Both the position numbers and the translations under genes were made by a program. Under the pieces are notes generated by a model. That model made no database searches. It was not told where the DNA came from and was given only the letters and a program-made list of their open reading frames with translations. This document shows positions 21,904 through 61,824 of a DNA stretch of 64,000 nucleotides, in pieces. Source of the stretch: Thermococcus sp. (lineage in GTDB: Archaea; Methanobacteriota_B; Thermococci; Thermococcales; Thermococcaceae); the NCBI RefSeq assembly GCF_026991495.1, contig NZ_JALXBJ010000034.1:1-64000 (forward strand). Direction: 5' to 3'. The first letter of the stretch is position 1, and each line of letters opens with the position of its first letter.

Positions 21904-21941
21904 TATCTTTGACTAAAAACTACAGATGGAGGATGAAGATA

Positions 21942-24785: not shown

Positions 24786-24797
24786 AGGGGTGATTCC

Positions 24798-46179: not shown

Positions 46180-47100
46180 CTATCGACTCCGCAAGGGGAA
46201 ACGCCCAAAGACATCGTCAAAGTACCCCCTAACGAGCGAGACGACGCGGGTGGAGTCGAAGGGGGCTTCCTCCACCATCTTGAGCGCTTTGTTTAGGAAG
46301 CCCTTGGCGACCTCAATGGACTTTCCGAAGATCCCTGCCTCCTTCATCCTGTCGAAGAGCTCCAATAGGCGCTCCTCCCTCGGCTCCCTCAGGACGCTCT
46401 CCACAAAGCCCGAGCCGTAGCTCTCCGTGTAGAGGATAAGCGGGAGGGTCGCCTTGCCGTTGAGCAGGTCTTTAAAGCGGTCTTTTCCTGTTCCAGGGAA
46501 GTAGTCGAGGACGTCGTCGACGATCTGAAACGCCCTGCCCACGAGGTTTCCGGCCCTGTCGAGTTCCCCCCAGAAGGGCTTTCCAGCGTAGTAGGCTGGG
46601 AGCGCAAAGGCCACGCCGAAGAGCCGTCCCGTTTTGCCATCTATTATCTTGTAATAGGTATCCACACCGAGGTGGATCCTCCCGCGGACGGCCTCCTGGA
46701 GTATCTCCGCCTTCACCATATCCTCCACGGCCCGGGCCACGTAGTCGACGGTTTCAAGCCTCTTGCCCCCTATGACCCTGAGGGCCCTGACGAAGAGGAA
46801 GTCCCCGGTTAAGACGGCCAGCTCCGGGCCCCAGCGCATGAGCACAGTTGGGCTGTTCCTCCTCTTTTCAGCGAGGTCGATGACGTCGTCGTGGACGAGG
46901 CTGGCGGTGTGGATGAGCTCAACTGCCGAGGCCAGGTCGAGGGCGTCCCTCTCCTCAAGCCCGAGGTCCTCGGCCACCGCGAGGACGATCCTCGGCCTTA
47001 TCCTCTTCCCGCCGCTCCTTATGACGTACTCACCGACCTTCTTCGCGAGTTCGACGCTCCCCTCAAGTAGCTCGAGTATGTTCCTGTCAAGGGACTCCAT
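46180..47100 (-). CDS. Long-chain polyprenyl diphosphate synthase
   Basis: A 306-residue trans-isoprenyl diphosphate synthase. The first Asp-rich motif reads V-H-D-D-V-I-D and the second F-Q-I-V-D-D-V-L-D-Y; the chain has G-K-R-I-R-P near 31-36. Position -5 before the first motif is Ile-His-Thr-Ala-Ser, and no bulky aromatic is seen just before it, which allows a long product. It ends an operon with SQR-like, ferrochelatase and membrane proteins, so a quinone side chain is a reasonable product, although archaeal lipid synthesis is an alternative. It overlaps the upstream gene by 14 nt. Confidence 0.84.
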   Translation of the reverse strand: MESLDRNILELLEGSVELAKKVGEYVIRSGGKRIRPRIVLAVAEDLGLEERDALDLASAVELIHTASLVHDDVIDLAEKRRNSPTVLMRWGPELAVLTGDFLFVRALRVIGGKRLETVDYVARAVEDMVKAEILQEAVRGRIHLGVDTYYKIIDGKTGRLFGVAFALPAYYAGKPFWGELDRAGNLVGRAFQIVDDVLDYFPGTGKDRFKDLLNGKATLPLILYTESYGSGFVESVLREPREERLLELFDRMKEAGIFGKSIEVAKGFLNKALKMVEEAPFDSTRVVSLVRGYFDDVFGRFPLRSR

Positions 47101-48052: not shown

Positions 48053-48430
48053 TCACACGGCATTGGAGAGGGCCCTTATTAGACCTTTCGCCATCCAGTC
48101 AACCCCCGGGATGAGATAGGTCTTCCCCCTTATGAAGGTGTACATGCCGAAGATCGCGTATATAAGCCAGGCGTAGGCGACGTAGAGGGCCGGTCCAAAG
48201 TGCGGGTAGTTGGGGTTCACCATCGGCATGTGCCAGAGGGCCATGAAGGCCAGCCAGGCGAAGAAGCCCATGACGCTTGAATAGGCCGCGTGCAGCTTTG
48301 TGAACTCGTCGGTGTCCTTCATGAGGAGGAGTGGAATTCCACCGACGAAGCCCATGATGTAGGCTATGAAGGCGTTCGTGAACCTCTCCGTTCCCCTTAC
48401 CTCCACACCTTCAGTTCTCGTTAACGGCAT
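48053..48430 (-). CDS. Four-helix membrane protein of the heme/quinone operon (unknown)
   Basis: A 125-residue protein with about four hydrophobic segments and several His, Met and Tyr residues at their ends (W-H-M-P-M, N-Y-P-H-F). ATG 48430 is preferred: GGAGGTG lies 7 nt upstream within the end of the ferrochelatase gene. I recognise no family. A link to heme or quinone handling is inferred from the operon. Confidence 0.7.
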   Translation of the reverse strand: MPLTRTEGVEVRGTERFTNAFIAYIMGFVGGIPLLLMKDTDEFTKLHAAYSSVMGFFAWLAFMALWHMPMVNPNYPHFGPALYVAYAWLIYAIFGMYTFIRGKTYLIPGVDWMAKGLIRALSNAV

Positions 48431-49304
48431 TTTCAATCACCTCCGCTACAGCTTCGCTCAAAAGCGGATCGCGGTGGTTGAGCCCGGCCCTTTTGTATCT
48501 AAGGCCGAGCCTTTCAGCCACTTCGCCATACTCAACGTCCAGCTCGTAGAGGGTCTCGATGTTCTCGACGATGAAGCTGAGTGGGTAAACGAGAACCTCG
48601 CTCACTCCCTCGGATTTCAGCCTCTCTAAAACCTCAGGCACCTCGGGCCCGAGCCACTGGCCCCTCCCGAACTTGCTCTGGAAGGCTATTTCCCAGGGCA
48701 GGTCGAAGGCCTTCATAACCCTCTCTGCGAGCTTTCTGTGGGTTCTCTCGTAGGGGTCGCCCTCGTCGATTACCCTCTTTGGGAGACTGTGAACGCTCAG
48801 GATCACGTAGGGCTCTTCAAAACCGCTATCCTCCAGACCGGTTTTGATGTTCCTCTGAACCCAGCGGATAAACTTCGCGTTGTCCCACCACTCCCTCACG
48901 TAGGGCTTCTCCCCGAAGAGCTCCCTTATCTTAGCCAGACAGCGTTCGGTTGTTGAGCTTGAGTAGACGTGGTAGAGCGGGAAGACGAGATCGAAGTCCC
49001 AGTTAAGTTCCTCGAGGAGGGGCCTTGAGTAGCACATGCCAAGCCTTACCTCGTGGCCCGTCTTTTCGCTTACAGCCCCTGCTATCTCCATCATGTACTC
49101 GACGAGGGGGCTTTTACCGCCTATGACCTTATAGTGCCCCCTGACCTGCCTCGCGCGGGCCTTGGCTATACCTTTGATTATCGCCTTAGCCCCGGGAACG
49201 TTGAGCCCTATGTGGTACCTCACATCGTAGAGAAAGCGAAATATGAAGTCCTCGATTTCATCCGGCTCGGTTGGTGCCCCCATGTAGGTGAAGAGAACCC
49301 TCAA
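48411..49304 (-). CDS. hemH: Ferrochelatase
   Basis: A 297-residue HemH-type chelatase that inserts Fe2+ into a porphyrin. The catalytic His lies in S-V-H-S-L-P (His172) and the catalytic Glu in I-E-T-L-Y-E-L-D (Glu250). The residue two before that Glu, His in many ferrochelatases, is Asn248. It starts at TTG 49304 with GGAGGTGA upstream. No other tetrapyrrole synthesis gene leading to protoporphyrin or coproporphyrin is visible nearby, so the porphyrin may be imported. Ferrochelatase is unusual in a Thermococcales genome. Confidence 0.85.
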   Translation of the reverse strand: MRVLFTYMGAPTEPDEIEDFIFRFLYDVRYHIGLNVPGAKAIIKGIAKARARQVRGHYKVIGGKSPLVEYMMEIAGAVSEKTGHEVRLGMCYSRPLLEELNWDFDLVFPLYHVYSSSTTERCLAKIRELFGEKPYVREWWDNAKFIRWVQRNIKTGLEDSGFEEPYVILSVHSLPKRVIDEGDPYERTHRKLAERVMKAFDLPWEIAFQSKFGRGQWLGPEVPEVLERLKSEGVSEVLVYPLSFIVENIETLYELDVEYGEVAERLGLRYKRAGLNHRDPLLSEAVAEVIENAVNEN

Positions 49305-49331
49305 GGTTTCACCTCCAAAAGAAGGAAAGGA

Positions 49332-49754
49332 TCAGAGCTTGCCGTTCAAAGCCGCTCCGAGGTTCTTCGCAAGGACTAAGAGGAAGCCGAGTCCCTTCTG
49401 AACGTCCTCGTCGCGGAGGTAGCCCAACGCTGCCGTCATGCCGACCCTCGGTGCCTCCTTCGGGTCGGTCTTCGCTAAAGCTTTCAGAAGAGCCCTCACG
49501 AGTTCCTCGGTGTTCCACTCTATCTCCCTGGCCTCCGCAGTTTCGAGCTCCCTGACCGGCTCTAAGGCGGCGTTCCCAACGCCGAGGAGCCTCAGGAGAG
49601 CCTTCTCTTCCGCTATCGTTTCGAGGAGCTTGTCGCCGTTCTCGGTCATCGCCTTGAGAAGCCCAAGGGTTCCGCCCTTCTTAAGGGCTAAGGCGACTTC
49701 GGCAAGTTCCCTTATGGCTGCAACCTCTTCGGGGGTAAGGGTAAGCTCGCTCAT
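49332..49754 (-). CDS. DUF1641 protein (SQR-associated)
   Basis: A 140-residue helical protein ending with the DUF1641 signature L-R-D-E-D-V-Q-K-G-L-G-F-L-L. This domain is typically encoded beside sulfide:quinone-reductase-like or formate-dehydrogenase flavoproteins, as here. ATG 49754 has GAGGTGGTGAAG upstream. The biochemical role is unknown. Confidence 0.84.
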   Translation of the reverse strand: MSELTLTPEEVAAIRELAEVALALKKGGTLGLLKAMTENGDKLLETIAEEKALLRLLGVGNAALEPVRELETAEAREIEWNTEELVRALLKALAKTDPKEAPRVGMTAALGYLRDEDVQKGLGFLLVLAKNLGAALNGKL

Positions 49755-49764
49755 CTTCACCACC

Positions 49765-50913
49765 TCACAGCCTCAAACTGTCAAGCCAGCCCCTGTAGAA
49801 CGAGTCCTTCATCAGCCTCACGAGCGGGCTCTTGACGAGCAGGTAGCACTCGCGCTTGTACTTGCTCCCTGCCCACTCGTACTCGCAGTTTCCTGAGAAG
49901 CCGGTGTTGTAGCCGTGGCCGACGCAGAGCGTTGGCGCATATTCCGCAACGGGGTAGCCGCCGTGTATCCTGTGGAGAATGCTGGTTGCTGCAACGATGG
50001 AGGCGTTGTGGAGCGGAACTCCAGCGGTGAGGAGCCCGAGAGGCGGCATGCTCGCTTCGCTGACGATGTAAACTTCGTCGTAGTCCGGGTAGCGGAAGTC
50101 GGGGCCGATTACCTTCGCCCAGCGCGGGTCCTTCTCGCTCGCCATAAAGGACATAACGTCGGGAATAGCTATCGGCGGTATCTTGATGAGCAAATCGTAG
50201 TCAACCTCGGCGTTCTTGGTTACAACCTTGTTCGGCGTTATCTCGACGTGGCCGCCGTTGGGGATGAAGTTAACTTTGGCCTTCTCCATCTCCCCCTCGA
50301 AGAACTTGACCAGGTCAGGCCCAAGGCCGATTCCGGGCCTCTTGTCGGGGTGGACGACGGTTATCTCAACTCCCTCAATCCCGCGGTGCTCGAAGTACAT
50401 CCTCAGGTTGAGGCTCATCTCGTAGGGGTAGATACCGCAGCGGTGCGGCCCTTCTGGAGCGTAGATGACTATCTTCCCGCCCTTGAACTCCGAAAGGGCT
50501 TTGTGAAGCTCAAGAGCACCCTCAAGGGTGTAGTTGTGGTAACCGTACTCGGCAAAGCCTTTGTACTTGTCCCAGACGTACTTGACGCCCAACCCAAGGA
50601 ACAGGTAGTCGTAGTCATAAACCTTACCGCTCTCAGTTTTCACCTGCCTGTTGGCGAGGTCTATCTCTGTGACCCTGTCGATGTCAACCTTGAAGCCGTA
50701 GACCTTTTCCGCGTTCTTTATCGGTGCCCATGTCTCATCGGCGGAAGCAGAGCCCAAAGCCACCTCCATGAATAGGGGCGGCATGTAGTGCCTCTCGCTC
50801 GCCGTCACCATCGTGACGTCTGCATCGATGCCGAGCCTTTTAGCTTCGGCCGTTATGTACCTCCCGGCGACCAGGCCGGCAGTTCCACCGCCCAAAATAA
50901 GAACCTTCGCCAT
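49765..50913 (-). CDS. Sulfide:quinone oxidoreductase-like FAD protein
   Basis: A 382-residue two-dinucleotide-binding-domain flavoprotein. FAD binding is at L-G-G-G-T-A-G (7-13). Cys159 in G-P-H-R-C-G-I-Y-P-Y-E matches the position of the first redox Cys of SQR, and Cys330, Cys343 and Cys356 are candidates for its partner. It has no signal peptide; the C-terminal hydrophobic and basic tail (K-S-P-L-V-R-L-M-K-D-S-F-Y-R) may contact the membrane. It would feed electrons from sulfide or polysulfide into quinone. It is first in a six-gene operon with DUF1641, hemH, two membrane proteins and a polyprenyl synthase. ATG 50913 follows GGAGGTG. Confidence 0.82.
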   Translation of the reverse strand: MAKVLILGGGTAGLVAGRYITAEAKRLGIDADVTMVTASERHYMPPLFMEVALGSASADETWAPIKNAEKVYGFKVDIDRVTEIDLANRQVKTESGKVYDYDYLFLGLGVKYVWDKYKGFAEYGYHNYTLEGALELHKALSEFKGGKIVIYAPEGPHRCGIYPYEMSLNLRMYFEHRGIEGVEITVVHPDKRPGIGLGPDLVKFFEGEMEKAKVNFIPNGGHVEITPNKVVTKNAEVDYDLLIKIPPIAIPDVMSFMASEKDPRWAKVIGPDFRYPDYDEVYIVSEASMPPLGLLTAGVPLHNASIVAATSILHRIHGGYPVAEYAPTLCVGHGYNTGFSGNCEYEWAGSKYKRECYLLVKSPLVRLMKDSFYRGWLDSLRL

Positions 50914-50955
50914 AACAGCACCTCCCACGTGGACTGTCCAAAAGCTTTATGGCTC

Positions 50956-50972
50956 GGGGGTATATAACACTT
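50956..50972 (-). promoter_or_regulatory. TATA promoter of the SQR-hemH operon
   Basis: On the minus strand AAAAGTGTTATATACCC lies about 45-58 nt before ATG 50913. Its initiation region would be near 50935. Confidence 0.6.
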
Positions 50973-50986
50973 TTGATTATCGCACC

Positions 50987-50999
50987 TTCAAGGTTTGAA
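50987..50999. promoter_or_regulatory. Inverted repeat between the divergent sqr and cyd-side promoters
   Basis: TTCAA-GGT-TTGAA is a perfect 5-bp inverted repeat with a 3-nt spacer. It lies between the minus-strand TATA (50956-50972) and the plus-strand TATA (51018-51028), a fit position for an operator acting on both. Confidence 0.4.
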
Positions 51000-51013
51000 A
51001 AGAGCCAGAAGCG

Positions 51014-51028
51014 AAAATGATATAAGAA
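51014..51028 (+). promoter_or_regulatory. BRE/TATA for the small membrane protein gene
   Basis: CGAAAATGATATAAG lies about 32-45 nt before ATG 51060. It resembles the cydA promoter (CGAAAACATTATAAG); each is preceded by GTTTGAAAAG, at 50993 and 51304. Confidence 0.55.
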
Positions 51029-51059
51029 GTTAAGAGAAAAATTGAGCTTGGTGGTCCCC

Positions 51060-51263
51060 ATGGGGGTGGAAGCTGAAACCGGAAAGGAGGTTATATACGG
51101 GCTGGCTGCGATAACATTGACGTTGCTGTTTGTCTTGTTTGCGTTCTTGCTCCACAACGTTGTCTGGATTGTCGCAGGAATGCTCTTTACGGTCTGCTTC
51201 ATTCTCTACGAGGCAGAGGTGCACGGCTTGGGCTTCTTCACAAAGCCGAAGGTCAAGGGTTAG
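51060..51263 (+). CDS. Small two-helix membrane protein upstream of cydA
   Basis: A 67-residue protein with a short acidic N terminus, two closely spaced membrane helices (about 13-35 and 38-57), and a basic tail (K-P-K-V-K-G). ATG 51060 follows GGTGGTC; an earlier in-frame TTG is less likely. It is separated from cydA by about 117 nt containing a T-run and the cydA promoter, so it is not strictly cotranscribed, but the promoters are alike. It might be an accessory bd-oxidase subunit, by analogy with small bacterial CydX/CydS proteins, although it has two helices rather than one. This is an inference. Confidence 0.68.
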   Translation: MGVEAETGKEVIYGLAAITLTLLFVLFAFLLHNVVWIVAGMLFTVCFILYEAEVHGLGFFTKPKVKG

Positions 51264-51275
51264 TTTGCCTGCTCT

Positions 51276-51291
51276 ACCTTTTCGTTTTTTG
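51276..51291 (+). terminator. T-run terminator after the small membrane protein gene
   Basis: CCTTTTCGTTTTTTGT lies 13 nt after the stop and ahead of the cydA promoter. Confidence 0.5.
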
Positions 51292-51303
51292 TCGGGTACA
51301 TAT

Positions 51304-51364
51304 GTTTGAAAAGCCGAAAACATTATAAGTTTGAACCCCACTGAGAATAGTTTGAGGGTCAAAC
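51304..51364 (+). promoter_or_regulatory. cydA promoter with three GTTTGA repeats and a palindrome
   Basis: BRE/TATA CGAAAACATTATAAG spans 51316-51330. GTTTGA occurs at 51304, 51329 and 51350. The last begins a perfect palindrome GTTTGA-GGG-TCAAAC (51350-51364) that lies at or just past the expected start of transcription, where a bound repressor would block it. GGGAGGTGA and the ATG at 51381 follow. Confidence 0.5.
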
Positions 51365-51380
51365 AGGGAGGTGACACGGA

Positions 51381-52904
51381 ATGGATCCGGTGCTGCTTTC
51401 GAGGATACAGTTCGCCCTAACCGCCGGCTACCATTGGATTTTCGTGCCGGCGAGCATAGGGATGGGCTTTATGGTGTTTCTGATATGGACAATGGCGGCG
51501 ATAACCAATGAGGATCAGTGGTACAAGGCGGCGAAGTTCTTCAGCAAGTGGCTCGGAGTCTTCTTCGTCCTTGGAGTTCCTACTGGAATCGTCATGGAGT
51601 TCGAGTTCGGGGCAAATTGGGCCAACTATTCAACCTTTGTAGGTTCGATATTCGGGCCGCCGCTGATGCTCGAGGGACTCTTCGCCTTCGCCCTTGAGTC
51701 AACGTTCATAGGCGTCCTCCTCTTCGGCATGGACAGGCTCCCCAAGGTCATAAGCTGGATCTCGTCGTTCTTCGTCTTCATAGGCTCAAGCCTTTCAGGT
51801 CTCTGGATCCTCATAGCAAACAGCTGGCAGCAGACGCCAAGTGCGTACATAATCAAAAACGCTGCGCTCGGTCCAAGGGCAGAGCTTACGGACTTTATGA
51901 AAGCGGTATTCAACCCGCTCTTAGTTTCCCAGTACACCCATACCATAAACTCGGCCATACTAACCGGTTCCTACATAGTCGCGGCGGTTGGGGCCTACTA
52001 CCTTCTCAAGAAGAGGCACGTCCAGGTCGCGAGGAGCGCCGTTGCAATAGGCATCGTCGTTCTCGCCATAAGCTCTGTGATCCAGCTGTACCCAACTGGC
52101 CACGCCGAGGGCAGGGTCATAGCCAAGTACCAACCGACCAAGTTGGCCGCGGACGAGGGCCTCTTCAAGACGGAAACTGGGGCACCGATGATAGTCTTCG
52201 GGATCGTCGACGAGAAGAACCAGGAGGTCAAGGCTGCAATCGGGATTCCAAAGCTCCTGAGCTGGCTCTCATTCGGCGACTGGAACGCGAAGGTTCTCGG
52301 CCTTCACGATGCAGCAAAATACGTATGGTACCAGCAGGTTCTCAACAACCCGAACTACGCCAATGAAAAGGTCAAGAAGCAGGTAGTTGACAGCATAATG
52401 AAGGCCTACGGCATCAACCCGAACGACCCGCAGGCAAACGAGAAGATGGTTCAGATTCTTGAGAAGTCCGTGCCCGTTGCCTTCATGTTCTACGCCTACC
52501 GCGTCATGGTCGGCCTGGGAACGCTCTTCATCCTGATCGGCCTCGTTGGGCTTCTCCTGCTCCTCATCGGCAGGCTCTACGACGCAAGGTGGTTCCTCAA
52601 GGTGCTCGTCGTTACACTCCCGCTCCCGTGGCTCGCCGGAGAAGCGGGCTGGTTCACCCACGAGGTCGGGAGACAGCCTTGGATGGTATGGGGTATGGTG
52701 ACTGTCAAAAACGGCGCCTCAGCGAACGTCTCAGCGGCAAGCGTGCTGACGACGCTCATAGGATTCGTGGTAGTTTACACCATACTGTTCTACATCTGGC
52801 TCTACTTTGTTAAGAAGCTCGTCAGAGAGGGGCCCGAGCCGGTTGAGGGTGATGTTACTGCCAAACCAGCCCCTGCAGTCAGCGCCGCGGGAGGTGGCCA
52901 GTGA
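51381..52904 (+). CDS. cydA: Cytochrome bd oxidase subunit I
   Basis: A 507-residue CydA, about nine helices. It oxidises quinol and reduces O2 in the cell membrane. Heme ligands are intact: His18 (b595 or d site), His187 in Y-T-H-T (b558) and Met376 in R-V-M-V-G-L-G. The proton-path Glu98 and Glu106 are present. Q-loop residues Lys254 and Glu259 (K-L-A-A-D-E) and the G-R-Q-P-W motif (430-434) match those tied to quinol oxidation in E. coli. The long Q-loop is closer to the E. coli type than to short Q-loop forms. The C-terminal tail is Ala/Pro-rich. All of this predicts a working enzyme. Confidence 0.95.
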   Translation: MDPVLLSRIQFALTAGYHWIFVPASIGMGFMVFLIWTMAAITNEDQWYKAAKFFSKWLGVFFVLGVPTGIVMEFEFGANWANYSTFVGSIFGPPLMLEGLFAFALESTFIGVLLFGMDRLPKVISWISSFFVFIGSSLSGLWILIANSWQQTPSAYIIKNAALGPRAELTDFMKAVFNPLLVSQYTHTINSAILTGSYIVAAVGAYYLLKKRHVQVARSAVAIGIVVLAISSVIQLYPTGHAEGRVIAKYQPTKLAADEGLFKTETGAPMIVFGIVDEKNQEVKAAIGIPKLLSWLSFGDWNAKVLGLHDAAKYVWYQQVLNNPNYANEKVKKQVVDSIMKAYGINPNDPQANEKMVQILEKSVPVAFMFYAYRVMVGLGTLFILIGLVGLLLLLIGRLYDARWFLKVLVVTLPLPWLAGEAGWFTHEVGRQPWMVWGMVTVKNGASANVSAASVLTTLIGFVVVYTILFYIWLYFVKKLVREGPEPVEGDVTAKPAPAVSAAGGGQ

Positions 52905-53899
52905 TGGACTACGCGACTGCCTGGTTTTACTTTTCGGCCTTCCTCCTGGGAATGTACCTTGCCTTTGACGGCTTCGACCTCGGACTTGGCTCACTGCTGT
53001 TTTTCATCAAGGACGAGAGGGACAAAGACATACTCGTAAACACCATCGCTCCGGTCTGGGACGGCAACGAGGTCTGGTTCATCACCTGGGGTGCAGGGAT
53101 ATTCGCAATGTGGCCGGCCCTCTACGCCGTACTCTTCAGCACGTTCTACCTTGCGGTCTGGCTGCTCGCGTTCCTCTTCATCTTCAGGGCGGTCAGCTTT
53201 GAGTTCAGGAACAAGTACAAGAAGCTCTGGGACTACCTCTTCGCCACCGTCAGCGCGCTAATCCCGCTCATCATAGGGGTCATAGTCGGCAATCTAATCC
53301 AGGGGATCCCGATAGACGCCAAAGGCTTCCACGGCTCGCTCCTGACGCTCTTCAGGCCCTTCCCGCTCATAGTGGGTCTCTTCGTGCTCTTCGCGGTGAT
53401 GTGGCACGGGGCCAACTGGGCGGTCTACAAGACGACAGGAAAGATACAGGAGCAGATGAGGAAGCACGCCTTCAACTTCTGGATCCTCACGGTGGTGTTC
53501 CTCCTGCTCGTCGTCGTCGGCATGAAGGTCTGGGCACCCTCAAGATTCGACAGGGCGCTGACACCACTCGGGCTTACACTGACGCTGATAATCCTAATAG
53601 CGGCCCTCTTGGACGGCTACCTCATCAAGAAGGGCGACGAAAAGCTCAGCTTCTACATAAGCTGGCTCGCGTTCCCGCTGGTGGTCTACCTCGTCTACTA
53701 CTCAATGTACCCCAACTGGGTCATCTCAACAACCGACCCGAAGTTCAAGCTCAGCATCCAAACGCTCGCGGCCTCGCCGCTGACCCTCCAGGCGGTCTTA
53801 GGGATCTCGGTGATATTGGCAGTGATAATCATGAGCTACACCCTCTACGTCTACAAGATGTTCGGGGGCAAGGTCACCGAGGCAGAGGGCTATTACTGA
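52904..53899 (+). CDS. cydB: Cytochrome bd oxidase subunit II
   Basis: A 331-residue CydB, about eight helices. F-D-G-F-D-L-G (21-27) and W-D-G-N-E-V-W (52-58) carry the conserved Asp residues of the proton channel. The ATG overlaps the cydA TGA (TGATG), with GGAGGTGG 6 nt upstream, so the subunits are translationally coupled. No cydC/cydD assembly transporter is adjacent. A T-rich terminator follows. Confidence 0.94.
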   Translation: MDYATAWFYFSAFLLGMYLAFDGFDLGLGSLLFFIKDERDKDILVNTIAPVWDGNEVWFITWGAGIFAMWPALYAVLFSTFYLAVWLLAFLFIFRAVSFEFRNKYKKLWDYLFATVSALIPLIIGVIVGNLIQGIPIDAKGFHGSLLTLFRPFPLIVGLFVLFAVMWHGANWAVYKTTGKIQEQMRKHAFNFWILTVVFLLLVVVGMKVWAPSRFDRALTPLGLTLTLIILIAALLDGYLIKKGDEKLSFYISWLAFPLVVYLVYYSMYPNWVISTTDPKFKLSIQTLAASPLTLQAVLGISVILAVIIMSYTLYVYKMFGGKVTEAEGYY

Positions 53900-53900
53900 G

Positions 53901-53926
53901 CCTTTTTGCCCTTTTTCTTTACCTTT
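53901..53926 (+). terminator. T-rich terminator after cydB
   Basis: Two T-runs (CCTTTTTGCCC and CTTTTTCTTTACC) follow the stop within 26 nt. Confidence 0.55.
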
Positions 53927-53941
53927 GAATTTCGAATTTTT

Positions 53942-53957
53942 TGGGGAAAAGTTTATA
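53942..53957 (+). promoter_or_regulatory. BRE/TATA of the heme/quinone operon
   Basis: GGGAAAAGTTTATAATTC lies about 50-65 nt before ATG 54007. It is the only clear promoter ahead of eleven closely spaced rightward genes reaching the window end. Confidence 0.6.
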
Positions 53958-54006
53958 ATTCGGTAGGCCAAGGTTTATTCTGGTAACCTAAGAGACGGTG
54001 GTCGAA

Positions 54007-55212
54007 ATGCACCGAGGCAAATCTAATAGTTCACGGCCCTATGATAAGAAGCCCCTCCTCGTCTTCTGGGAAACCACAAAGGCCTGCCAGCTCAAGTGCA
54101 AGCACTGTCGGGCGGAGGCTATCCTTCAGGCCCTCCCGGGCGAGTTGACAACCGAAGAAGGGGAGAAACTCATAGATTCTCTAACCGACTTCGGAAGGCC
54201 ATATCCTATTCTAATCCTCACAGGTGGAGACCCGCTCATGAGGAAGGGCATCCTCGAGCTCATTGATCGCGCGGTTGAGAAGGGCATCCGCGTTGGTTTG
54301 GCTCCGGCTGTAACTCCCCTTCTCACCGAGGAAACGATAGATAAAATCGTCGAGCACGGCGTTAAAGCGGTCAGCATAAGCCTCGACAGTCCGTTCCCTG
54401 AGGTTCACGACGCGATAAGGGGCATCGAGGGAACGTGGGAGAGAACCGTCTGGGCGATAAGGGAGTTCCTGAAGAGAAACGTTTCGGTGCAGGTTAACAC
54501 CGTTGTTATGCGCGAGACCGTTGAAGGCTTACCCGAGATGGTGAAGCTTTTGAAAGATTTGGGCGTCGAAATCTGGGAGGTCTTCTACCTCGTTCCAACC
54601 GGCAGGGGCAACTTCGAGAGCGATTTAAGGCCGGAGGAGTGGGAGGATGTAACCCACTTCCTTTACGAAGCATCGAAGCACCTCCTCGTCAGGACAACAG
54701 AAGGTCCGATGTTCAGGCGTGTGGCAATAATGAGAAAGGCCCTTGAGGAGAAGGGAACAAACCCGGATGAAGTTCTGAAACCGGGAGAACTCTACTTCAG
54801 GCTCAAGCGTAAGCTGGTTGAACTCCTCGGTGATGGGGGAGAGGCGAGGGCACAGACGATGGGAACGCGCGACGGGAAGGGCATAGTTTTCATTGCCTAC
54901 AACGGGAACGTTTATCCGAGCGGGTTCCTGCCTTACAGCGTTGGAAACGTGAGGGAGAAGGGCTTGGCAGAGATTTACCGGAACTCGGAACTCATGAGAA
55001 AGCTCCGCTCGGCCGAGTTCAAGGGGAGATGTGGGGTCTGTGAATTCAGGGATGTCTGCGGTGGGAGCAGGGCCAGGGCCTACGCCTACCACGTTGATCC
55101 GCTTGCCGAAGACCCTGCCTGCCCCTACGAGCCGGGAACTTACCTTAAGCTCGCCGAGAAATTTGGATTAAACCTCCCGGTTGGCACCTTCGGGGAGCAA
55201 AAACCTGTCTGA
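54007..55212 (+). CDS. Radical SAM/SPASM protein related to AhbD/NirJ (TIGR04053-like)
   Basis: A 401-residue protein. The radical SAM motif C-Q-L-K-C-K-H-C (Cys27, 31, 34) and the T-G-G-D-P motif lie in the N-terminal half. The SPASM tail has C-G-V-C-E-F-R-D-V-C-G-G-S-R-A-R-A-Y-A, then a closing C-P-Y-E. This C-terminal pattern is shared by the TIGR04053 group and by AhbD/NirJ, which act on heme and related tetrapyrroles (AhbD decarboxylates Fe-coproporphyrin III to heme). Its neighbours (ferrochelatase, heme-type importer, HemG-like flavodoxin) favour a tetrapyrrole substrate. ATG 54007 follows GGTGGTCG. Confidence 0.82.
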   Translation: MHRGKSNSSRPYDKKPLLVFWETTKACQLKCKHCRAEAILQALPGELTTEEGEKLIDSLTDFGRPYPILILTGGDPLMRKGILELIDRAVEKGIRVGLAPAVTPLLTEETIDKIVEHGVKAVSISLDSPFPEVHDAIRGIEGTWERTVWAIREFLKRNVSVQVNTVVMRETVEGLPEMVKLLKDLGVEIWEVFYLVPTGRGNFESDLRPEEWEDVTHFLYEASKHLLVRTTEGPMFRRVAIMRKALEEKGTNPDEVLKPGELYFRLKRKLVELLGDGGEARAQTMGTRDGKGIVFIAYNGNVYPSGFLPYSVGNVREKGLAEIYRNSELMRKLRSAEFKGRCGVCEFRDVCGGSRARAYAYHVDPLAEDPACPYEPGTYLKLAEKFGLNLPVGTFGEQKPV

Positions 55213-55222
55213 GGTGGTAAAG

Positions 55223-56281
55223 ATGAAGTGGAAAGCTTTCTTAGTAGTTGGAATCCTCCTGGTTTCGGTCCTCGGTGCCGGCTGCATTGAAAGTTCTAAC
55301 AACTCCACAACGGCAACCCCGAAGGAGATAACCGTCAAGGACTTCGCGGGGAGAACCGTTACCCTTAAAGTTCCCGTCCAGAGGGCAGCAATCCTCTCAA
55401 CTTCGGCCCTTGAGGTGGTCCAGCTACTCAACGCGAGCGACCAGGTGGTTGGAATCCCAGCGGAGGCAAAGGCCGACGCTTTCCTGAGTCCCGACCTTAA
55501 GAACAAGACCGTCGTTGGGAGGAGGCTTAAGATAGACGACTGGGAGAAGGTCTTAGCTTTGAAGCCAGACCTGATCGTCAACCTCTACCTGAAGAAGTTC
55601 TACGACGTTGATGCTTTTCTCAACAGGTCGGCGGGCTACGGGATTCCTGTGATAATGCTCCGCGAGGACAGGCTTGAGGACATCCCGAAGGCCGTTGAGC
55701 TACTCGGAAAGCTCTTCGGAAAGGAGAAAGATGCCAAAGCCTTCGAGGACTACTTCAACGAGCAGGTAAGCGAGGTGAAGGAGATAGCGTCAAAGATACC
55801 GGCAGAGAGGAGGAAGAAGGTCATCATGATACAGCCGATAATGGGGAGGTATTACCTCGTTAACGGCAACGACGTCTTAGCGCAGGCGGTAAGGCTAATC
55901 GGGGGTGAATACCTCGTCAACATTACTGTGAAGGGCTACATCCCCGTCAGGGTTCCGATGGACAGGGAGAAGATAATCGCAAGTTATGGCGATGCCGACG
56001 TTGCAATCCTCCTCACGAGTTCCGTTACACCCTACGAGAAGGTGGAAGAGCTTAAGAACGAGATGTTGAAGGACGATGCCTGGAAGCAGATAAAAGCGGT
56101 CAGAGAAGGCAACGTCGTTGTTCTCCGCGCCGATATGAGCAAAGATTCCTTCCTCCGCTGGAGTCCGAGGCTGGCCGTCGGAATCTGGGTCATAGGGAAG
56201 GCCGTCTATCCGAGCTATTATCCAGACTGGGAAGGCAAAGCGAAGGAGTTCATCAAGAGGTTCTACCCCTTCCTCTCCTGA
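55223..56281 (+). CDS. ABC transporter substrate-binding lipoprotein (heme/cobalamin/siderophore type)
   Basis: A 352-residue binding protein. The lipoprotein signal ends at G-A-G-C (Cys21), followed by an Asn/Thr-rich linker and a TroA/BtuF-type fold. It is 10 nt after the radical SAM gene with GAGGTGGTAAAG upstream of ATG 55223. The permease and ATPase encoded downstream are of the FecCD/BtuCD class. The ligand could be heme, porphyrin, cobalamin or Fe-siderophore; neighbours favour a tetrapyrrole. Confidence 0.86.
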   Translation: MKWKAFLVVGILLVSVLGAGCIESSNNSTTATPKEITVKDFAGRTVTLKVPVQRAAILSTSALEVVQLLNASDQVVGIPAEAKADAFLSPDLKNKTVVGRRLKIDDWEKVLALKPDLIVNLYLKKFYDVDAFLNRSAGYGIPVIMLREDRLEDIPKAVELLGKLFGKEKDAKAFEDYFNEQVSEVKEIASKIPAERRKKVIMIQPIMGRYYLVNGNDVLAQAVRLIGGEYLVNITVKGYIPVRVPMDREKIIASYGDADVAILLTSSVTPYEKVEELKNEMLKDDAWKQIKAVREGNVVVLRADMSKDSFLRWSPRLAVGIWVIGKAVYPSYYPDWEGKAKEFIKRFYPFLS

Positions 56282-56298
56282 ATTTTTGAGGTGAAATC

Positions 56299-57174
56299 AT
56301 GATAGCGGTCTTTCCCGCGAGCCTTGCAGAAATCGTCAAGCTCGTCGGAAAAGCTGGCGAGATAGCTGGGATAAACGAAGAAATCAGGCTCAACTACTGC
56401 CTGCCGGAGCTGAGGGACAGGCCGGTCATAGGCAGGTATCTAAAGAGGACGAAGAAGACATACTGGGACGTTTTAGAGGGAATAAGGCCGAGGTTGATCC
56501 TCGACTTTAAAGTGGAGAACCTTCACTCCTCGGGTGAGCTATATTCCTTCGCCGAAAGAATAAACGCTGAAGTTCTTCTCCTCGACTTTTTAACCGTTGA
56601 CGACCTCATCGAGGGAAGCAGACTGATAGCCGAAAAAACCGGAGGGAACTTCTCAAAGCTCGGCGAGTTCTACGGAAAGCAGCTCGCGAGGATAAGGGAG
56701 ATAACCCGGCTCCTTGAGGAAAAACCGAAGGTGGTTATGCTCTACAGGGGAATAAACGTCGTCACGGGAACCAACGTTATAAGCGACGCGGTTAAGAAGG
56801 CAGGTGCAGAAAGCCTCGGGAAGAGGCTGAGAACTGAAAGGAAGGTCTATCCCCTCAAAAAGGAGGACTTCATCAGGCGCTTTGGCGATGTGGATCACAT
56901 CTTCCTTTTGACGAGCGTTCTGACAAAGGGGGAGAAGCTCGAAGCGATAAGGGATGAGATGCTCGATTCGGCCGAGTGGAAGAAGGTTAAAGCGGTTGAT
57001 GAAGGCAACGTCCACATCGTCGGCTCGGCTTTGGATAGGGAAAGCTTTATGCGCTGGAGTCTCCGCTTGATTCCCGGGATTTACCAGATAGGAAGGCTCG
57101 TCCACGGGAAGGACTTCCCGGACTGGAAGAGGCCAGCGAAAGAGCTTTACAGCCTCTGCGGTGTTGAGGAATGA
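56299..57174 (+). CDS. Signal-less (cytoplasmic) binding-protein-fold homologue
   Basis: A 291-residue protein similar to the preceding lipoprotein over its whole length: both share the R-P-V-I-G-R or T-V-V-G-R segment, the L-L-T-S-x-L-T region, S-F-x-R-W-S-x-R-L and a terminal P-D-W. It starts directly at the folded domain and has neither signal peptide nor lipobox. GAGGTGAAATC precedes ATG 56299, and the sequence upstream does not encode a signal in frame. It is probably a cytoplasmic partner of the importer, perhaps a receiver or chaperone for the imported ligand. That role is a guess. Confidence 0.78.
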   Translation: MIAVFPASLAEIVKLVGKAGEIAGINEEIRLNYCLPELRDRPVIGRYLKRTKKTYWDVLEGIRPRLILDFKVENLHSSGELYSFAERINAEVLLLDFLTVDDLIEGSRLIAEKTGGNFSKLGEFYGKQLARIREITRLLEEKPKVVMLYRGINVVTGTNVISDAVKKAGAESLGKRLRTERKVYPLKKEDFIRRFGDVDHIFLLTSVLTKGEKLEAIRDEMLDSAEWKKVKAVDEGNVHIVGSALDRESFMRWSLRLIPGIYQIGRLVHGKDFPDWKRPAKELYSLCGVEE

Positions 57175-58106
57175 AGAAGCTCGCGCTAATAGTCCTCCCT
57201 TCACTTGCTGTATTCCTCGGAATCTTCGTGGGGAGCTACCCGACCAACCCGCTCAACCTGACACCGGGGGCGGTGAATATAATCTGGGAAATCCGCCTGC
57301 CAAGAACTCTGATGGGCGTTTCCGCTGGAATAGCGCTCTCGTTGGGCGGGATGACCCTCCAAGCCATCTTCAGGAACCCACTCGTTGACACCTACATCCT
57401 CGGTGTTTCCTCCGGCGTTGCCTTGGGGGCAGCTATAGCTGTTGCATTTTTGCCCTTCGCTGGAATCGCGCCTTTAGCGCTCCTCTTTGGTCTCTTAGCG
57501 GTTTTCTTCGCCTACTGGATGGCGAGAATAAACGGGAGGATCTCCACCGTTTCCCTCATCCTCGCGGGCATAATCGTTACCGCCCTCTTCTCGGCTCTGC
57601 TTTCTCTCCTCGAACTCCTCCTTCCGAGCGAGAGCTTATACGCTCTGGTCGTATGGCTAATGGGGAGCCTCTCAAACGCAGACTGGGAAACGGTAATCTA
57701 CTCCCTTCCCGGCGTTCTCATCCTGGCTTTCCTCCTCTTCCTCCTCCGCTGGAATCTCAACGCGATGAGCTTAGGCGATGAGGCCGAATTGCTTGGCCTG
57801 AACGTTCACCTCTGGAGGGGGATTTTCGTCTTCATTTCAGCATTAATGACTACTCTGGTGGTTTCATTCACCGGGATAATCGGCTGGGTCGGGCTTATGG
57901 TTCCACACATGGCGAGGATGCTCGTAGGGCCGGAGCACTCAAGACTAATCCCCGCAACGGTCTCAATCGGAATCACCGTGATGGTCTTAGCTGACATCGT
58001 GGTTAGGCTTCTCCCGGGAGATGTTCCGGTCGGGATAATAACGACTCTGGTGGGAGTTCCATTTTTCGGCTATCTCCTCAGAAAGACCGGGGGTGGATGG
58101 AGTTGA
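57171..58106 (+). CDS. FecCD/BtuC-type ABC permease
   Basis: A 311-residue permease with about nine to ten helices. Family marks are R-L-P-R-T-L near 43-48, G-x-Q-A-I-F-R-N-P-L-V-D-T-Y-I-L-G-V-S-S-G (written T-L-Q-A-I-F-R-N-P-L) and G-W-V-G-L-M-V-P-H-M-A-R near the C terminus. The ATG overlaps the preceding stop (ATGA). It is the membrane channel for the binding protein at 55223 and the ATPase at 58698. Confidence 0.9.
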   Translation: MKKLALIVLPSLAVFLGIFVGSYPTNPLNLTPGAVNIIWEIRLPRTLMGVSAGIALSLGGMTLQAIFRNPLVDTYILGVSSGVALGAAIAVAFLPFAGIAPLALLFGLLAVFFAYWMARINGRISTVSLILAGIIVTALFSALLSLLELLLPSESLYALVVWLMGSLSNADWETVIYSLPGVLILAFLLFLLRWNLNAMSLGDEAELLGLNVHLWRGIFVFISALMTTLVVSFTGIIGWVGLMVPHMARMLVGPEHSRLIPATVSIGITVMVLADIVVRLLPGDVPVGIITTLVGVPFFGYLLRKTGGGWS

Positions 58107-58717
58107 GGATCCTCGTAGTTTACACCACAAGGTACGGAACGACGGAAAAGGCCGCTGAACTGGCTAAGAGACTCTTTGAGGACAGAGAACACAAAGTCGA
58201 TGTTTCGCGGGTCGAGGAGGATCCTTCGCCAATTGGATACGACCTCGTAATCCTGGGCGCTCCAGTTTACCGCGACGGTCCGCACTGGGATTTGATGAGG
58301 TGGGTTGAAGGGCACAAAGGGGAACTTGAGGAGGTTCCCAAAGCGTTCTTCTTGGTTGCTATGCATTTGGCGGGCTCGGTCTTCATGGGGAAGCTGCACG
58401 GCGGGATAGCCTACGCCCAACCGCTGATAGAGGCCTTCGAGGTTCCGCCCTTCTACGGGACACTCATCGGCGGTGAGATAGACCCGGATAAGCTGAGCGA
58501 CGAAGACAGGAGAAAGATGGTCAGGTTTTACGCCGTTCTCGGAGAAAAGCTTGAGAAAAAGAGCCTGTTCAGCGAGAAGGATGTGGAAGCCTTCGTGAGG
58601 AGGGTTTTGCTCTACTACGACTGGTTCGGGAAGCACTTCAGGCGGGGCGAGGTTGAAAAGGCCAAAAGCTTTGACTTCATGGAGAAGGTGAGGGAGCTTG
58701 AGAGGCTTACTGGTTGA
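58097..58717 (+). CDS. HemG-like flavodoxin-domain protein
   Basis: A 206-residue flavodoxin-fold protein with the FMN phosphate loop T-T-R-Y-G-T-T-E-K (near 10-18) and G-A-P-V-Y-R-D-G near 55-62. The closest functional relatives by pattern are HemG-type protoporphyrinogen oxidases, which pass electrons to quinone. It overlaps the permease by 10 nt and is itself overlapped by the ATPase start, so it sits inside a transporter operon. Together with ferrochelatase and cydAB this suggests oxidation of a porphyrinogen. A generic flavodoxin remains possible. Confidence 0.72.
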   Translation: MELRILVVYTTRYGTTEKAAELAKRLFEDREHKVDVSRVEEDPSPIGYDLVILGAPVYRDGPHWDLMRWVEGHKGELEEVPKAFFLVAMHLAGSVFMGKLHGGIAYAQPLIEAFEVPPFYGTLIGGEIDPDKLSDEDRRKMVRFYAVLGEKLEKKSLFSEKDVEAFVRRVLLYYDWFGKHFRRGEVEKAKSFDFMEKVRELERLTG

Positions 58718-59468
58718 GGGCGTTGGCTTTTCCTACGGTGACTTTGAAGTAGATGAGGTCAGTCTCAAGGTCAATCCCGGTGAGCTGGTCTCGATAATCG
58801 GGCCTAACGGGGCTGGAAAGAGCACCCTCCTCAGGTTAATCTACGGAACTCTAAGGCCAGATAAGGGGCGGGTCTTGGTTGATGGAAACGACGTTCACAG
58901 GCTTTCACCAGGGGAAAGGGCAAAACTTTTGGGTTTTGTTCCCCAAGACCACGTCCCAACGTTTCCGTTCAAGGTTCTCGACTTCGTCCTCCTCGGCGCT
59001 ACTCCAGAGCTGGGCACCTTCGGCGCTCCGGGCAAAAAACACAGGAGAAAAGCCCTAGAACTTCTCAAAACGTTTGGCCTTGAGAGCTACGCCGAAAAGC
59101 CTTACACCTCGCTGAGCGGTGGGCAGATGAGGCTCCTCCTGACGGCAAGGGCATTACTGACCTCCCCGAGGTACCTCCTCCTCGACGAGCCGATGAGCGA
59201 ACTCGACCTGAAAAACGCCCTTCTCGTCCTACAAACGGTTAGGAAGCTAACCAAAGAGGGCGTCGGCGTTCTCCTCGTTATACACGACCCCAACTTGGCC
59301 TATCTCTTCTCCGACAGGCTCGTCCTGATGAAAAACGGAAGGGTCGTCGCGGACGGAAGGCCCGATGAGGTCTTCGACGAGGGGCTTTTAAGCGAGGTCT
59401 ACGGAATAGAGCTCAGGCTTATCGACTGCTCCGGTGAAACCGTTTTAAGGCCGAAGTTAGAGGTGTGA
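58698..59468 (+). CDS. FecE/BtuD-type ABC ATPase
   Basis: A 256-residue ATPase with Walker [11 protein letters not shown]-loop V-P-Q-D, signature L-S-G-G-Q-M-R, Walker B L-L-L-D-E-P and H-loop I-H-D. It starts at TTG 58698 within the flavodoxin gene (GGGAG upstream). It energises the FecCD-type permease. Confidence 0.9.
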   Translation: MRGLLVEGVGFSYGDFEVDEVSLKVNPGELVSIIGPNGAGKSTLLRLIYGTLRPDKGRVLVDGNDVHRLSPGERAKLLGFVPQDHVPTFPFKVLDFVLLGATPELGTFGAPGKKHRRKALELLKTFGLESYAEKPYTSLSGGQMRLLLTARALLTSPRYLLLDEPMSELDLKNALLVLQTVRKLTKEGVGVLLVIHDPNLAYLFSDRLVLMKNGRVVADGRPDEVFDEGLLSEVYGIELRLIDCSGETVLRPKLEV

Positions 59469-59471
59469 GCG

Positions 59472-60917
59472 ATGAGGGACATGAGGGAGTACATAGAGTG
59501 GCTTGAGAGACGAAGGGAACTTATCCGCGTTGAGGAGGGGCTTTCTCCAGAGCTGGAAATCCCGGCCTTTCTGAGAAAAGCTATGTACGGGAAGAAGGGG
59601 GCCGTTCTCTTTGAGAGGGTTAAGGGCCATCCCGAGTGGAGAATCGCTGGAAACCTATTCACGAGCGTTGAGACGGTTAGGGAAGCACTTGGAGTTAGCA
59701 GACTTGAGGAAATCGGCGAGAGACCTCTCAAACTCTTAGAGAGCATTCCACTCGGCCTTTCGGACAAGCTCTCCTCCCTCGGAAGGCTGAAGGAGATGAG
59801 CAATTATCTTCCAAAAATAGTGAGAAAAGCGGAGTTCACCAGGAACGTGGTCGAGGACGAGCCACTGAAATTCATCCCAGCTTTCAAAACGTGGCCCGAA
59901 GATGCCTCCCGCTATCTCACTTATCCCCTCGTCTGTTTCTCCGACCCGAGGGGAGTGAACTCAATCAGCGTTTACCGCGTCATGCTCCTCGACGGCTCTA
60001 CCGGTCTGGTTCACTGGCAGGTGCACAAGAGGGGAAGCCAGGCCTGGCGGGAGTATCTTGAGGGGAATGACGGGAAAATGCCGGTGGCGATAGCCATAGG
60101 CTCTGACATAGGGACGCTTTTAACGGCCGTCTCCCCTGTCCCGTATCCTATGGACAAGCTGCTCTTCGCGGGCTTTGTCAGAGGGAAGGGACTTGAACTC
60201 TACCGCCTGCCCAACGGCGTCCTCGTTCCTGCCAATGCCGAGGCTGTGATAGAGGGCTACGTTGACGTGAACGAGCTGAGCGAGGAAGGGCCATTCGGGG
60301 ACCACTTTGGCTTCTACGACAAACCGAGCGAGAGGAACGAGCTTTATCCTGTCTTCCACGCCCAACGTTTGTACTACCGCGACGACCCGATTTACTACGG
60401 CTCTGTAGTCGGGAAGCCGCCGCTTGAGGATGCCGTAATAGGAAAAGCCATCGAGAGGATTTTCCTCCCGCTGATGAGGATGGTTCTGCCGGAAGTTGTT
60501 GACGTCAACTTTCCAGAATATGGCGTCTTTCAAGGCGTTGCCATAGTCTCGATAAAGAAGCGCTATCCCGGGCAAGGCAAGAAGGTTCTCAACGCCCTCT
60601 GGGGAACGGGCCAGATGGCGCTGACCAAGGTGATAATAGTCGTCAGCGAAGACATAAACGTCCACGACATAAACCAGGTCATCTGGGCGGTCGCTTCCTT
60701 TGTCAATCCTGAAAGGGACGTTTTGGTGATTCCGAACGCGCACACAGACGCCCTCGATCCAGCTGTCCCGAATCCGCCTCTCGGGAGCAAGCTGGGAATA
60801 GACGCGACGAGAAAGCTCCAGCTGGAGATGAAAGGGAGAACCGTTGAGGAAGTTGAGGAAGACCCGGAAGTTCTTGAGAGGCTCGATGGGCTCTTCAGGA
60901 AGTACCTCGGTGGTTGA
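59472..60917 (+). CDS. ubiD: UbiD family decarboxylase, second paralogue (adjacent to ubiA)
   Basis: A 481-residue UbiD enzyme, prenyl-FMN dependent. The S-V-Y-R-V-M-L-L-D and W-Q-V-H-K-R-G-S-Q segments match the cofactor site, and E-E-G-P-F-G-D-H the catalytic Glu. The C terminus has the L-G-S-K-L-G-I-D-A-T-R-K sequence. Immediately followed, after 1 nt, by a UbiA-type prenyltransferase: the classical pair that prenylates and then decarboxylates 4-hydroxybenzoate-like precursors of quinones. It differs considerably from the UbiD at 4173-5438. The start could also be ATG 59481. Confidence 0.88.
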   Translation: MRDMREYIEWLERRRELIRVEEGLSPELEIPAFLRKAMYGKKGAVLFERVKGHPEWRIAGNLFTSVETVREALGVSRLEEIGERPLKLLESIPLGLSDKLSSLGRLKEMSNYLPKIVRKAEFTRNVVEDEPLKFIPAFKTWPEDASRYLTYPLVCFSDPRGVNSISVYRVMLLDGSTGLVHWQVHKRGSQAWREYLEGNDGKMPVAIAIGSDIGTLLTAVSPVPYPMDKLLFAGFVRGKGLELYRLPNGVLVPANAEAVIEGYVDVNELSEEGPFGDHFGFYDKPSERNELYPVFHAQRLYYRDDPIYYGSVVGKPPLEDAVIGKAIERIFLPLMRMVLPEVVDVNFPEYGVFQGVAIVSIKKRYPGQGKKVLNALWGTGQMALTKVIIVVSEDINVHDINQVIWAVASFVNPERDVLVIPNAHTDALDPAVPNPPLGSKLGIDATRKLQLEMKGRTVEEVEEDPEVLERLDGLFRKYLGG

Positions 60918-60918
60918 G

Positions 60919-61824
60919 ATGGCCTTTGACCCAGGTGAGGTCAGCAAGGCGAGCAGGTTTCATGCACTGATGAGGCTCGTCAGGATAGAGCACACCCTCT
61001 TTAGTTTACCCTACGCTTACGTCGGAGCTCTCCTAAGCGGTTTCCACGTAACCTGGGTGGAGATAATCCTCATGAGCTTCGCCCTCCTCGGGTTGAGAAC
61101 TGCCGCCTTAGCCTACAACAACATAGCGGACATAGACATAGACAGCCTGAATCCAAGAACCTGGAACAGGCCACTGATCAAAGGGGCCGTAAAAATCAGC
61201 GACGCATGGTGGCTCGTCGTCGTTGGCTCGGTTCTCTACTTCGTCTCGGCTGTTCTGCTAAACTTCTGGACGGCCCTGCTCAGCCCGATTCCATGGGTTC
61301 TGGCCCTCGCCTATCCTCAAGGAAAGAGGAAGCACAGCTTTCCGCACCTCCACTTAGGCTTAACTCTGGCCATGGCTGTGGCAGGTGGGACTATTGCAGC
61401 AGGAGGCGATGAGACAAACCTCCTTGTCCTCCTTGAGAGAATCCCCTGGGCATTCTTCTTTGGAGTGCTCTTCTGGGTAGCGGGCTTCGACACTATCTAT
61501 GCCATCATGGACTACGAGTTCGACGTGAGGCACGGCGTTGGAAGCATTCCCGCGCGCTTCGGGATAAAGAAGGCCCTGGACATCGCTTTAGCCTTCCACC
61601 TGATTGCGATAGCCCTCTTTGGCCTTGCAGGCCCTCTCTACGGCCTCGGGTGGGTTTACCTCACCGGCTGGGCAGTCGGGAGCTTTTTAATCCTCCACGA
61701 GAACTACCTCGCGAGGAAAAGCCTTGAGAACGTTCCAAAGGCCTTCAACCTCAACATTCCCATCGGGTTAATCATCACGCTCTCAGCCATAGCCGATGCC
61801 CTGATAAAGCTCGGGGGTGGTTGA
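60919..61824 (+). CDS. ubiA: UbiA-type aromatic prenyltransferase
   Basis: A 301-residue membrane prenyltransferase with about eight helices. Both Asp-rich motifs are present: N-N-I-A-D-I-D-I-D (near 73-81) and D-T-I-Y-A-I-M-D-Y-E-F-D in the second half. They coordinate Mg-diphosphate of the prenyl donor. It lies between ubiD and a second ABC importer. The overall pattern (long F-S-L-P-Y-A-Y start) is of the 4-hydroxybenzoate prenyltransferase/MqnP class rather than the lipid DGGGP synthase class. ATG 60919 follows GGTGGTTGAG. Confidence 0.86.
   Translation: MAFDPGEVSKASRFHALMRLVRIEHTLFSLPYAYVGALLSGFHVTWVEIILMSFALLGLRTAALAYNNIADIDIDSLNPRTWNRPLIKGAVKISDAWWLVVVGSVLYFVSAVLLNFWTALLSPIPWVLALAYPQGKRKHSFPHLHLGLTLAMAVAGGTIAAGGDETNLLVLLERIPWAFFFGVLFWVAGFDTIYAIMDYEFDVRHGVGSIPARFGIKKALDIALAFHLIAIALFGLAGPLYGLGWVYLTGWAVGSFLILHENYLARKSLENVPKAFNLNIPIGLIITLSAIADALIKLGGG

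Follow-up and report, generated by a model that had tools for sequence, protein, structure and literature searches.

Formation of heme from coproporphyrin is known from the siroheme-dependent Ahb pathway of archaea and sulfate reducers, in which the radical SAM enzyme AhbD acts on Fe-coproporphyrin, and from the coproporphyrin-dependent pathway (CgoX, CpfC, ChdC), which pairs a ferrochelatase with a coproheme-decarboxylating enzyme. A two-step terminal cassette of ferrochelatase and coproheme decarboxylase is carried as hemQ-hemH on plasmids of Lactococcus lactis (L075). In Streptococcus agalactiae and Lactococcus, environmental heme activates cytochrome bd, together, in S. agalactiae, with environmental quinone (PMC2858704; PMC8303990). 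Within Thermococcus, the 2009 genome paper of T. gammatolerans noted CydAB and ubiquinone-like genes, without mention of heme (PMC2718504). Here we describe a gene island in a 64,000-nucleotide stretch of contig NZ_JALXBJ010000034.1 (hereafter the window), part of a Thermococcus metagenome-assembled genome (MAG; G000, 1.99 Mb, 94.9% complete). The island combines cytochrome bd genes with genes for the ferrochelatase HemH, an AhbD-type radical SAM protein, a FecCD-type importer and quinone biosynthesis, and it probably supplies the oxidase with heme derived from tetrapyrroles taken up from outside the cell.

Each of these systems resembles the island in part. The Ahb pathway shares with it the AhbD cysteine signature, and a 62%-identical homolog of the island's radical SAM protein lies in an Ahb locus; unlike that pathway, Thermococcus lacks early steps (HemB in G000, HemC genus-wide), and iron presumably arrives through HemH or with the imported molecule. 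With the coproporphyrin-dependent pathway it has in common a ferrochelatase and a candidate coproheme-decarboxylating enzyme, but the island contains no ChdC, its HemH bears a protoporphyrin-type lip and the putative decarboxylase is a radical SAM enzyme. The L. lactis cassettes likewise employ ChdC rather than an AhbD-type enzyme, have an MFS transporter between hemQ and hemH, and no cytochrome bd genes were seen alongside them. Unlike the systems of S. agalactiae and Lactococcus, the Thermococcus island unites salvage enzymes, importer and quinone genes, and does so in a hyperthermophilic archaeon. T. gammatolerans has the same CydAB and UbiD/UbiA/UbiE neighbourhood, but without the radical SAM protein and the importer. 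Searching the literature for heme biosynthesis and cytochrome bd in Thermococcus yielded no papers.

The island consists of two facing gene runs. On the minus strand lie, in order, a polyprenyl synthase, a conserved protein, a small membrane protein, HemH, a DUF1641 protein and an SQR-like flavoprotein. The plus-strand run begins with CydA and CydB and continues with the radical SAM/SPASM protein, a binding lipoprotein, a signal-less paralog of it, a FecCD permease, a flavodoxin, an ABC ATPase, UbiD and UbiA, followed by an SsuABC-like importer and then a UbiE-type methyltransferase. Gene order was identical in every cluster read, except for a block absent from one genome (G015, discussed below), and the island genes show dN/dS values of 0.05–0.19 (where computable), indicating purifying selection. 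The initial annotation, which covered positions 48411 to 58717, had listed the importer, the flavodoxin, HemH and the AhbD-like radical SAM gene, and all of these are present as intact open reading frames at about the positions it gave. Its list of tetrapyrrole genes was correct, but it did not mention the cytochrome bd genes in the middle of its own range and also missed the quinone module.

The same annotation saw only late tetrapyrrole steps, and this picture extends beyond the window. A genome search of G000 gave no match for HemB, and HemC was found in none of 61 genomes of Thermococcus, of which 49 are rated high quality, whereas 11 of 14 control genomes were positive, these negatives being specific to HemB and HemC, as HemA, HemD and SirA/siroheme enzymes were not among the searches in G000. 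All known routes that start at aminolevulinate require both HemB and HemC. The finding that had been named as able to overturn the salvage proposal, a full pathway to heme or siroheme encoded outside the window, did not materialise in these two negative searches.

In the same genus, heme appears to have a destination. CydA (51381..52904, plus strand) conserves the residues aligned to H19, H186 and M393 of E. coli, so the oxidase should bind heme; with these ligands and with CydB (52901..53899, plus strand), CydAB is a predicted cytochrome bd. Of the 61 genomes, 18 have CydA and 19 have HemH, namely the same 18 and G081. In G081 the SQR-like gene opens the HemH contig at base 71, and CydA would sit just beyond the contig; the other 42 genomes lack both. 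The radical SAM family TIGR04053 scores above its cut-off in 15 CydA-positive genomes and in no CydA-negative genome; its gene is split across two contigs in G080, falls at an assembly gap in G082 and is absent from G015. Fisher tests, uncorrected for shared ancestry, give p ~1e-14 for HemH with CydA and ~1e-12 for the radical SAM protein with CydA. HemH as a stray gene was rejected on the basis of this co-occurrence and the conserved gene order. Because CydAB needs heme and the early pathway is missing, uptake of a tetrapyrrole from outside is suggested, and we regard it as probable that salvage of external tetrapyrrole equips cytochrome bd, which is the most likely destination of the heme.

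The radical SAM/SPASM protein (53998..55212, plus strand) belongs to TIGR04053 (519.5 bits; cut-off 395), a family without assigned function, on which a literature search found no papers. The next best model is that of AhbD, TIGR04545, with 292.7 bits. Cysteines 30, 34, 37, 345, 348, 354 and 375 form CX3CX2C and CX2CX5C(GGS)X17C, equivalent to CX2CX5CX20C, with Ser357 in the fourth SPASM cysteine position. The AhbD proteins of non-methanogenic archaea have a matching published signature, namely CX3CX2C and CX2CX5CX20-38C with Ser replacing C324 (PMC10452713). The 62%-identical homolog comes from an Acidilobaceae MAG, where it shares its locus with hemA, hemB, hemL, hemC, a uroporphyrinogen (siroheme) methyltransferase and a CysG N-terminal-like (precorrin-2 dehydrogenase) gene; an AhbA/B-like gene follows it directly and an AhbC-like protein is encoded elsewhere in that genome. 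The inspected radical SAM proteins of this MAG included no further AhbD candidate, and the homolog itself scores only 283 bits against TIGR04545. The cysteine pattern and the homolog inside an Ahb locus make an AhbD function likely. Identity with AhbC or NirJ was rejected, as the AhbC model reaches 180 bits against 293 for AhbD and the Acidilobaceae AhbC-like protein is richer in cysteine. ChdC (PF06778) was ruled out as an alternative decarboxylase, being absent from all 61 Thermococcus genomes, which leaves the radical SAM protein as the sole coproheme decarboxylase candidate found. Searching the sequences of the PDB with an alignment of the radical SAM protein gave no match at E 1e-10.

HemH (48411..49304, minus strand) is a predicted ferrochelatase, with 176.7 bits against TIGR00109 (cut-off 124.6) and the catalytic His172 and Glu250 in place; the motifs LSVHSLP and ETLYELD are retained in all Thermococcus copies. 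Its active-site lip, in which Arg29 and His31 are conserved, is long. From Met8 to Tyr57 there are 49 residues, compared with 47 in the human enzyme and 34 (15 fewer) in Listeria CpfC, the short-lip reference (PMC9794026). According to a review, Gram-positive CpfC has no such insertion, and this absence permits coproporphyrin binding (PMC9133952). HemH does not have the short, lip-less active-site edge of CpfC, and both its sequence and its model contain the insertion over the vinyl-bearing rings that is typical of PpfC. The AlphaFold model (predicted local distance difference test score, pLDDT, 87.7) aligns with human ferrochelatase over 294 residues (Z 34.5, root-mean-square deviation 1.7–1.8) and with Listeria CpfC over 281 (Z 31.7, deviation 2.0). 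In a tree HemH groups with lip-type enzymes, with long-branch warnings. Lip length, alignment and tree position thus argue for protoporphyrin as the substrate. However, an insert as long as the lip is present in HemH of haloarchaea too, and the PitA protein of haloarchaea contains a coproheme decarboxylase domain (PMC5746218); the lip rule may therefore fail in archaea. At another archaeal locus (L029), the gene immediately after HemH encodes a HemY-type oxidase (TIGR00562, 379 bits).

The importer comprises a substrate-binding lipoprotein with a lipoprotein-like signal (55223..56281), a FecCD/BtuC-type permease (57171..58106) and an ABC ATPase (58698..59468, beyond the range first annotated), all on the plus strand and matching the Peripla_BP_2, FecCD and ATPase families. 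The best NCBIfam matches of the ATPase are of heme, F420-0 and corrinoid types, all under their cut-offs, and the AlphaFold model of the lipoprotein, with a pLDDT of 42, is too poor for use. Between lipoprotein and permease lies the second Peripla_BP_2-like gene (56299..57174, plus strand), whose product has no signal and is 29% identical to the first; it is conserved wherever the cluster has the importer, and the protein could serve as a cytosolic tetrapyrrole carrier. The flavodoxin gene (58097..58717, plus strand) sits between those for permease and ATPase, and its reading frame overlaps both. Its product matches Pfam Flavodoxin_5 (51.9 bits; cut-off 27), but reaches 29 of the 142 bits required by the HemG model and is 24% identical to E. 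coli HemG over 176 residues. Its possible roles are to oxidise porphyrinogen, to reduce ferric tetrapyrrole after import or to supply electrons to the radical SAM enzyme.

We propose that a tetrapyrrole made by neighbouring organisms would be taken up, most likely via the FecCD-type importer of the same gene run; HemH would insert iron, the AhbD-type enzyme would oxidatively decarboxylate two propionates to vinyls, giving heme b, and CydAB, an oxygen-reducing quinol oxidase, would use the product. The leading order of steps, which we hold tentatively and at somewhat less than even likelihood, runs from coproporphyrin III through Fe-coproporphyrin to heme. It leads because AhbD needs an iron-loaded substrate, the characterised enzyme handling metal-free coproporphyrin very poorly (PMC11306076), and because hemH and the radical SAM gene travel together. 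This linkage recurs outside Thermococcus. A Thermofilaceae MAG (L054) encodes homologs of HemH (54% identity) and of the radical SAM protein (69%) as divergently arranged neighbours, followed by a homologous binding protein; HemC was not found in this MAG, whose completeness is not established, but was found in the Acidilobaceae control. As pair and binding protein recur there, HemH and the radical SAM protein look like a transferable module. HemH exceeded the cut-off in four of 81 genomes, the Thermofilaceae MAG and three of its 80 relatives, and in those three (L086, L087, L088) it stands beside other hem genes in an arrangement of the classical type, with HemE adjoining and not the radical SAM gene, and groups with short-lip enzymes in the tree. 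Inspected by eye, the more complete of these three loci appear to contain hemA, hemC, hemD, hemB, hemL and hemE.

Set against these results, the path first proposed by the initial annotation, from coproporphyrinogen by way of coproporphyrin and Fe-coproporphyrin to heme, is supported in part. Salvage of external tetrapyrrole is strongly supported by the missing early pathway, the CydA ligand sites, the co-occurrence and the second lineage, while the exact coproporphyrin chemistry is not established. The assignment of HemH as a ferrochelatase is confirmed, but its use of coproporphyrin is not, lip and tree both pointing to the protoporphyrin type. The AhbD-like radical SAM protein has the cysteine signature and the Ahb-locus homolog in its favour and the TIGR04545 score against it. 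Likewise not established are the proposed role of the flavodoxin as a HemG-like porphyrinogen oxidase, porphyrin rather than cobalamin, heme or iron as the cargo of the importer, and the order of steps.

Several points weigh against the salvage path as drawn. The strongest evidence versus a strictly linear path in all strains is G015, taken to be T. gammatolerans EJ3. CydAB, HemH and the quinone genes are all retained in this genome, but at its locus (L025) the radical SAM protein, both binding proteins, the permease, the flavodoxin and the ATPase are missing without remnants, and 114 bp separate CydB from UbiD; radical SAM protein, importer and flavodoxin are therefore dispensable there. Either protoporphyrin enters this strain by another way, or its heme is obtained differently, or the system is decaying. 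In addition, the protoporphyrin-type lip of HemH argues against coproporphyrin as substrate, and the radical SAM protein falls below the NCBIfam equivalog cut-off for AhbD (500 bits), as does its Acidilobaceae homolog. The cargo of the importer is not readable from its sequence; likeness to IsdE is weak (59 bits; cut-off 299). The co-occurrence figures ignore shared ancestry.

The alternatives overlap, as the cargo and the order of steps are separate questions, and their likelihoods are not expected to add up to one. A close second to the linear order, possible if doubtful, is that two entries run in parallel, HemH metallating imported protoporphyrin IX while the radical SAM enzyme converts Fe-coproporphyrin III imported from archaea with the Ahb pathway. 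The lip insertion, the longer alignment with the human enzyme and the place of HemH in the tree would all fit, as would the retention of HemH without the radical SAM protein in T. gammatolerans. Yet the joint occurrence of hemH and the radical SAM gene in both Thermococcus and the Thermofilaceae MAG is more simply explained by a common path, and the haloarchaeal combination of lip-length HemH with PitA cautions against applying the lip rule in archaea.

Two further readings concern the cargo. The importer might carry cobalamin, an F420 precursor or iron, with the heme precursor entering otherwise; the permease does match best with BtuC models (219 bits, under cut-off) and also matches an F420-0 permease model, and T. 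gammatolerans keeps HemH and CydAB without this importer. We consider this unlikely, however, as one or more further FecCD permeases are encoded in almost every Thermococcus genome, which makes the island importer an improbable basic cobalamin or iron system, and the island-borne copies are found in CydA-positive genomes. Less likely again is import of finished heme, in which case HemH and the radical SAM protein would be accessory or have another job, e.g., modifying heme for the bd oxidase. Heme-transporter models are among the best NCBIfam matches of the binding protein and the ATPase, though under cut-off, and activation of cytochrome bd by heme uptake is known in S. agalactiae (PMC2858704); but HemH and an AhbD-type enzyme would then be superfluous, yet they are under purifying selection and linked in two lineages. 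Finally, decarboxylation before metallation, with the radical SAM enzyme making protoporphyrin IX from metal-free coproporphyrin for HemH, would allow a protoporphyrin-type lip and an AhbD-type enzyme to belong to a single linear route, but is highly improbable given the poor activity of AhbD on metal-free coproporphyrin (PMC11306076) and the presence of the close homolog in a locus of the Ahb pathway, in which Fe-coproporphyrin serves as substrate.

The salvage reading may extend to the second cofactor of the oxidase chain. Genes for UbiD, UbiA, UbiE and a polyprenyl diphosphate synthase lie near cytochrome bd (59472-62796 and L028:3800-5812, with the synthase at 46180..47100 on the minus strand, at the opposite edge of the island). 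The UbiD-family decarboxylase (59472..60917) is followed by a UbiA-family prenyltransferase related to MqnP (60844..61824; start codon uncertain) and by an NMT1/SsuA-like binding protein of a second ABC importer (61825..62796), all on the plus strand; the permease and ATPase of this importer and the UbiE-type methyltransferase come next, partly past the window. MqnA and MqnD were found in none of the 61 genomes, in a search of which Men genes and chorismate lyase were not part. We infer that the SsuABC-type importer could bring in a ring precursor, hinting at parallel salvage of quinone precursors. The full combination, in which imported coproporphyrin III, HemH and an AhbD-type finish form one transferable island with the oxidase and quinone-precursor salvage, is speculative, and we put it below the linear order taken by itself.

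The minus run holds further genes. The SQR/NDH-2-like flavoprotein (49765..50928, minus strand), a weak match to type III SQR, is a likely quinone reductase, and the DUF1641 protein (49332..49763, minus strand) is its likely partner. The small membrane protein (48053..48436, minus strand), which overlaps hemH by 26 bp, has no Pfam match and adjoins hemH in all Thermococcus clusters read. Elsewhere in the window (21909-25709), another radical SAM/SPASM protein is followed by ABC-type permease and ATPase genes, which represent a different system.

Many Thermococcus genomes carry no heme genes at all, yet in some there is a heme-dependent oxidase for which, as far as we found, the origin of the cofactor has remained unexplained since the first report in 2009. 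The island offers a testable answer, in which tetrapyrroles, and possibly quinone rings, are cross-fed by vent neighbours. If this is true, terminal heme enzymes from two pathways, a bacterial/eukaryotic-type HemH and an archaeal-type AhbD, would be combinable for salvage, and a function would be suggested for TIGR04053 in archaea. A fermentative hyperthermophile would thereby gain a heme- and quinone-dependent oxygen-reducing chain out of the precursors of other organisms, and both precursor cross-feeding and the oxygen tolerance of vent archaea would become testable in cultured strains.

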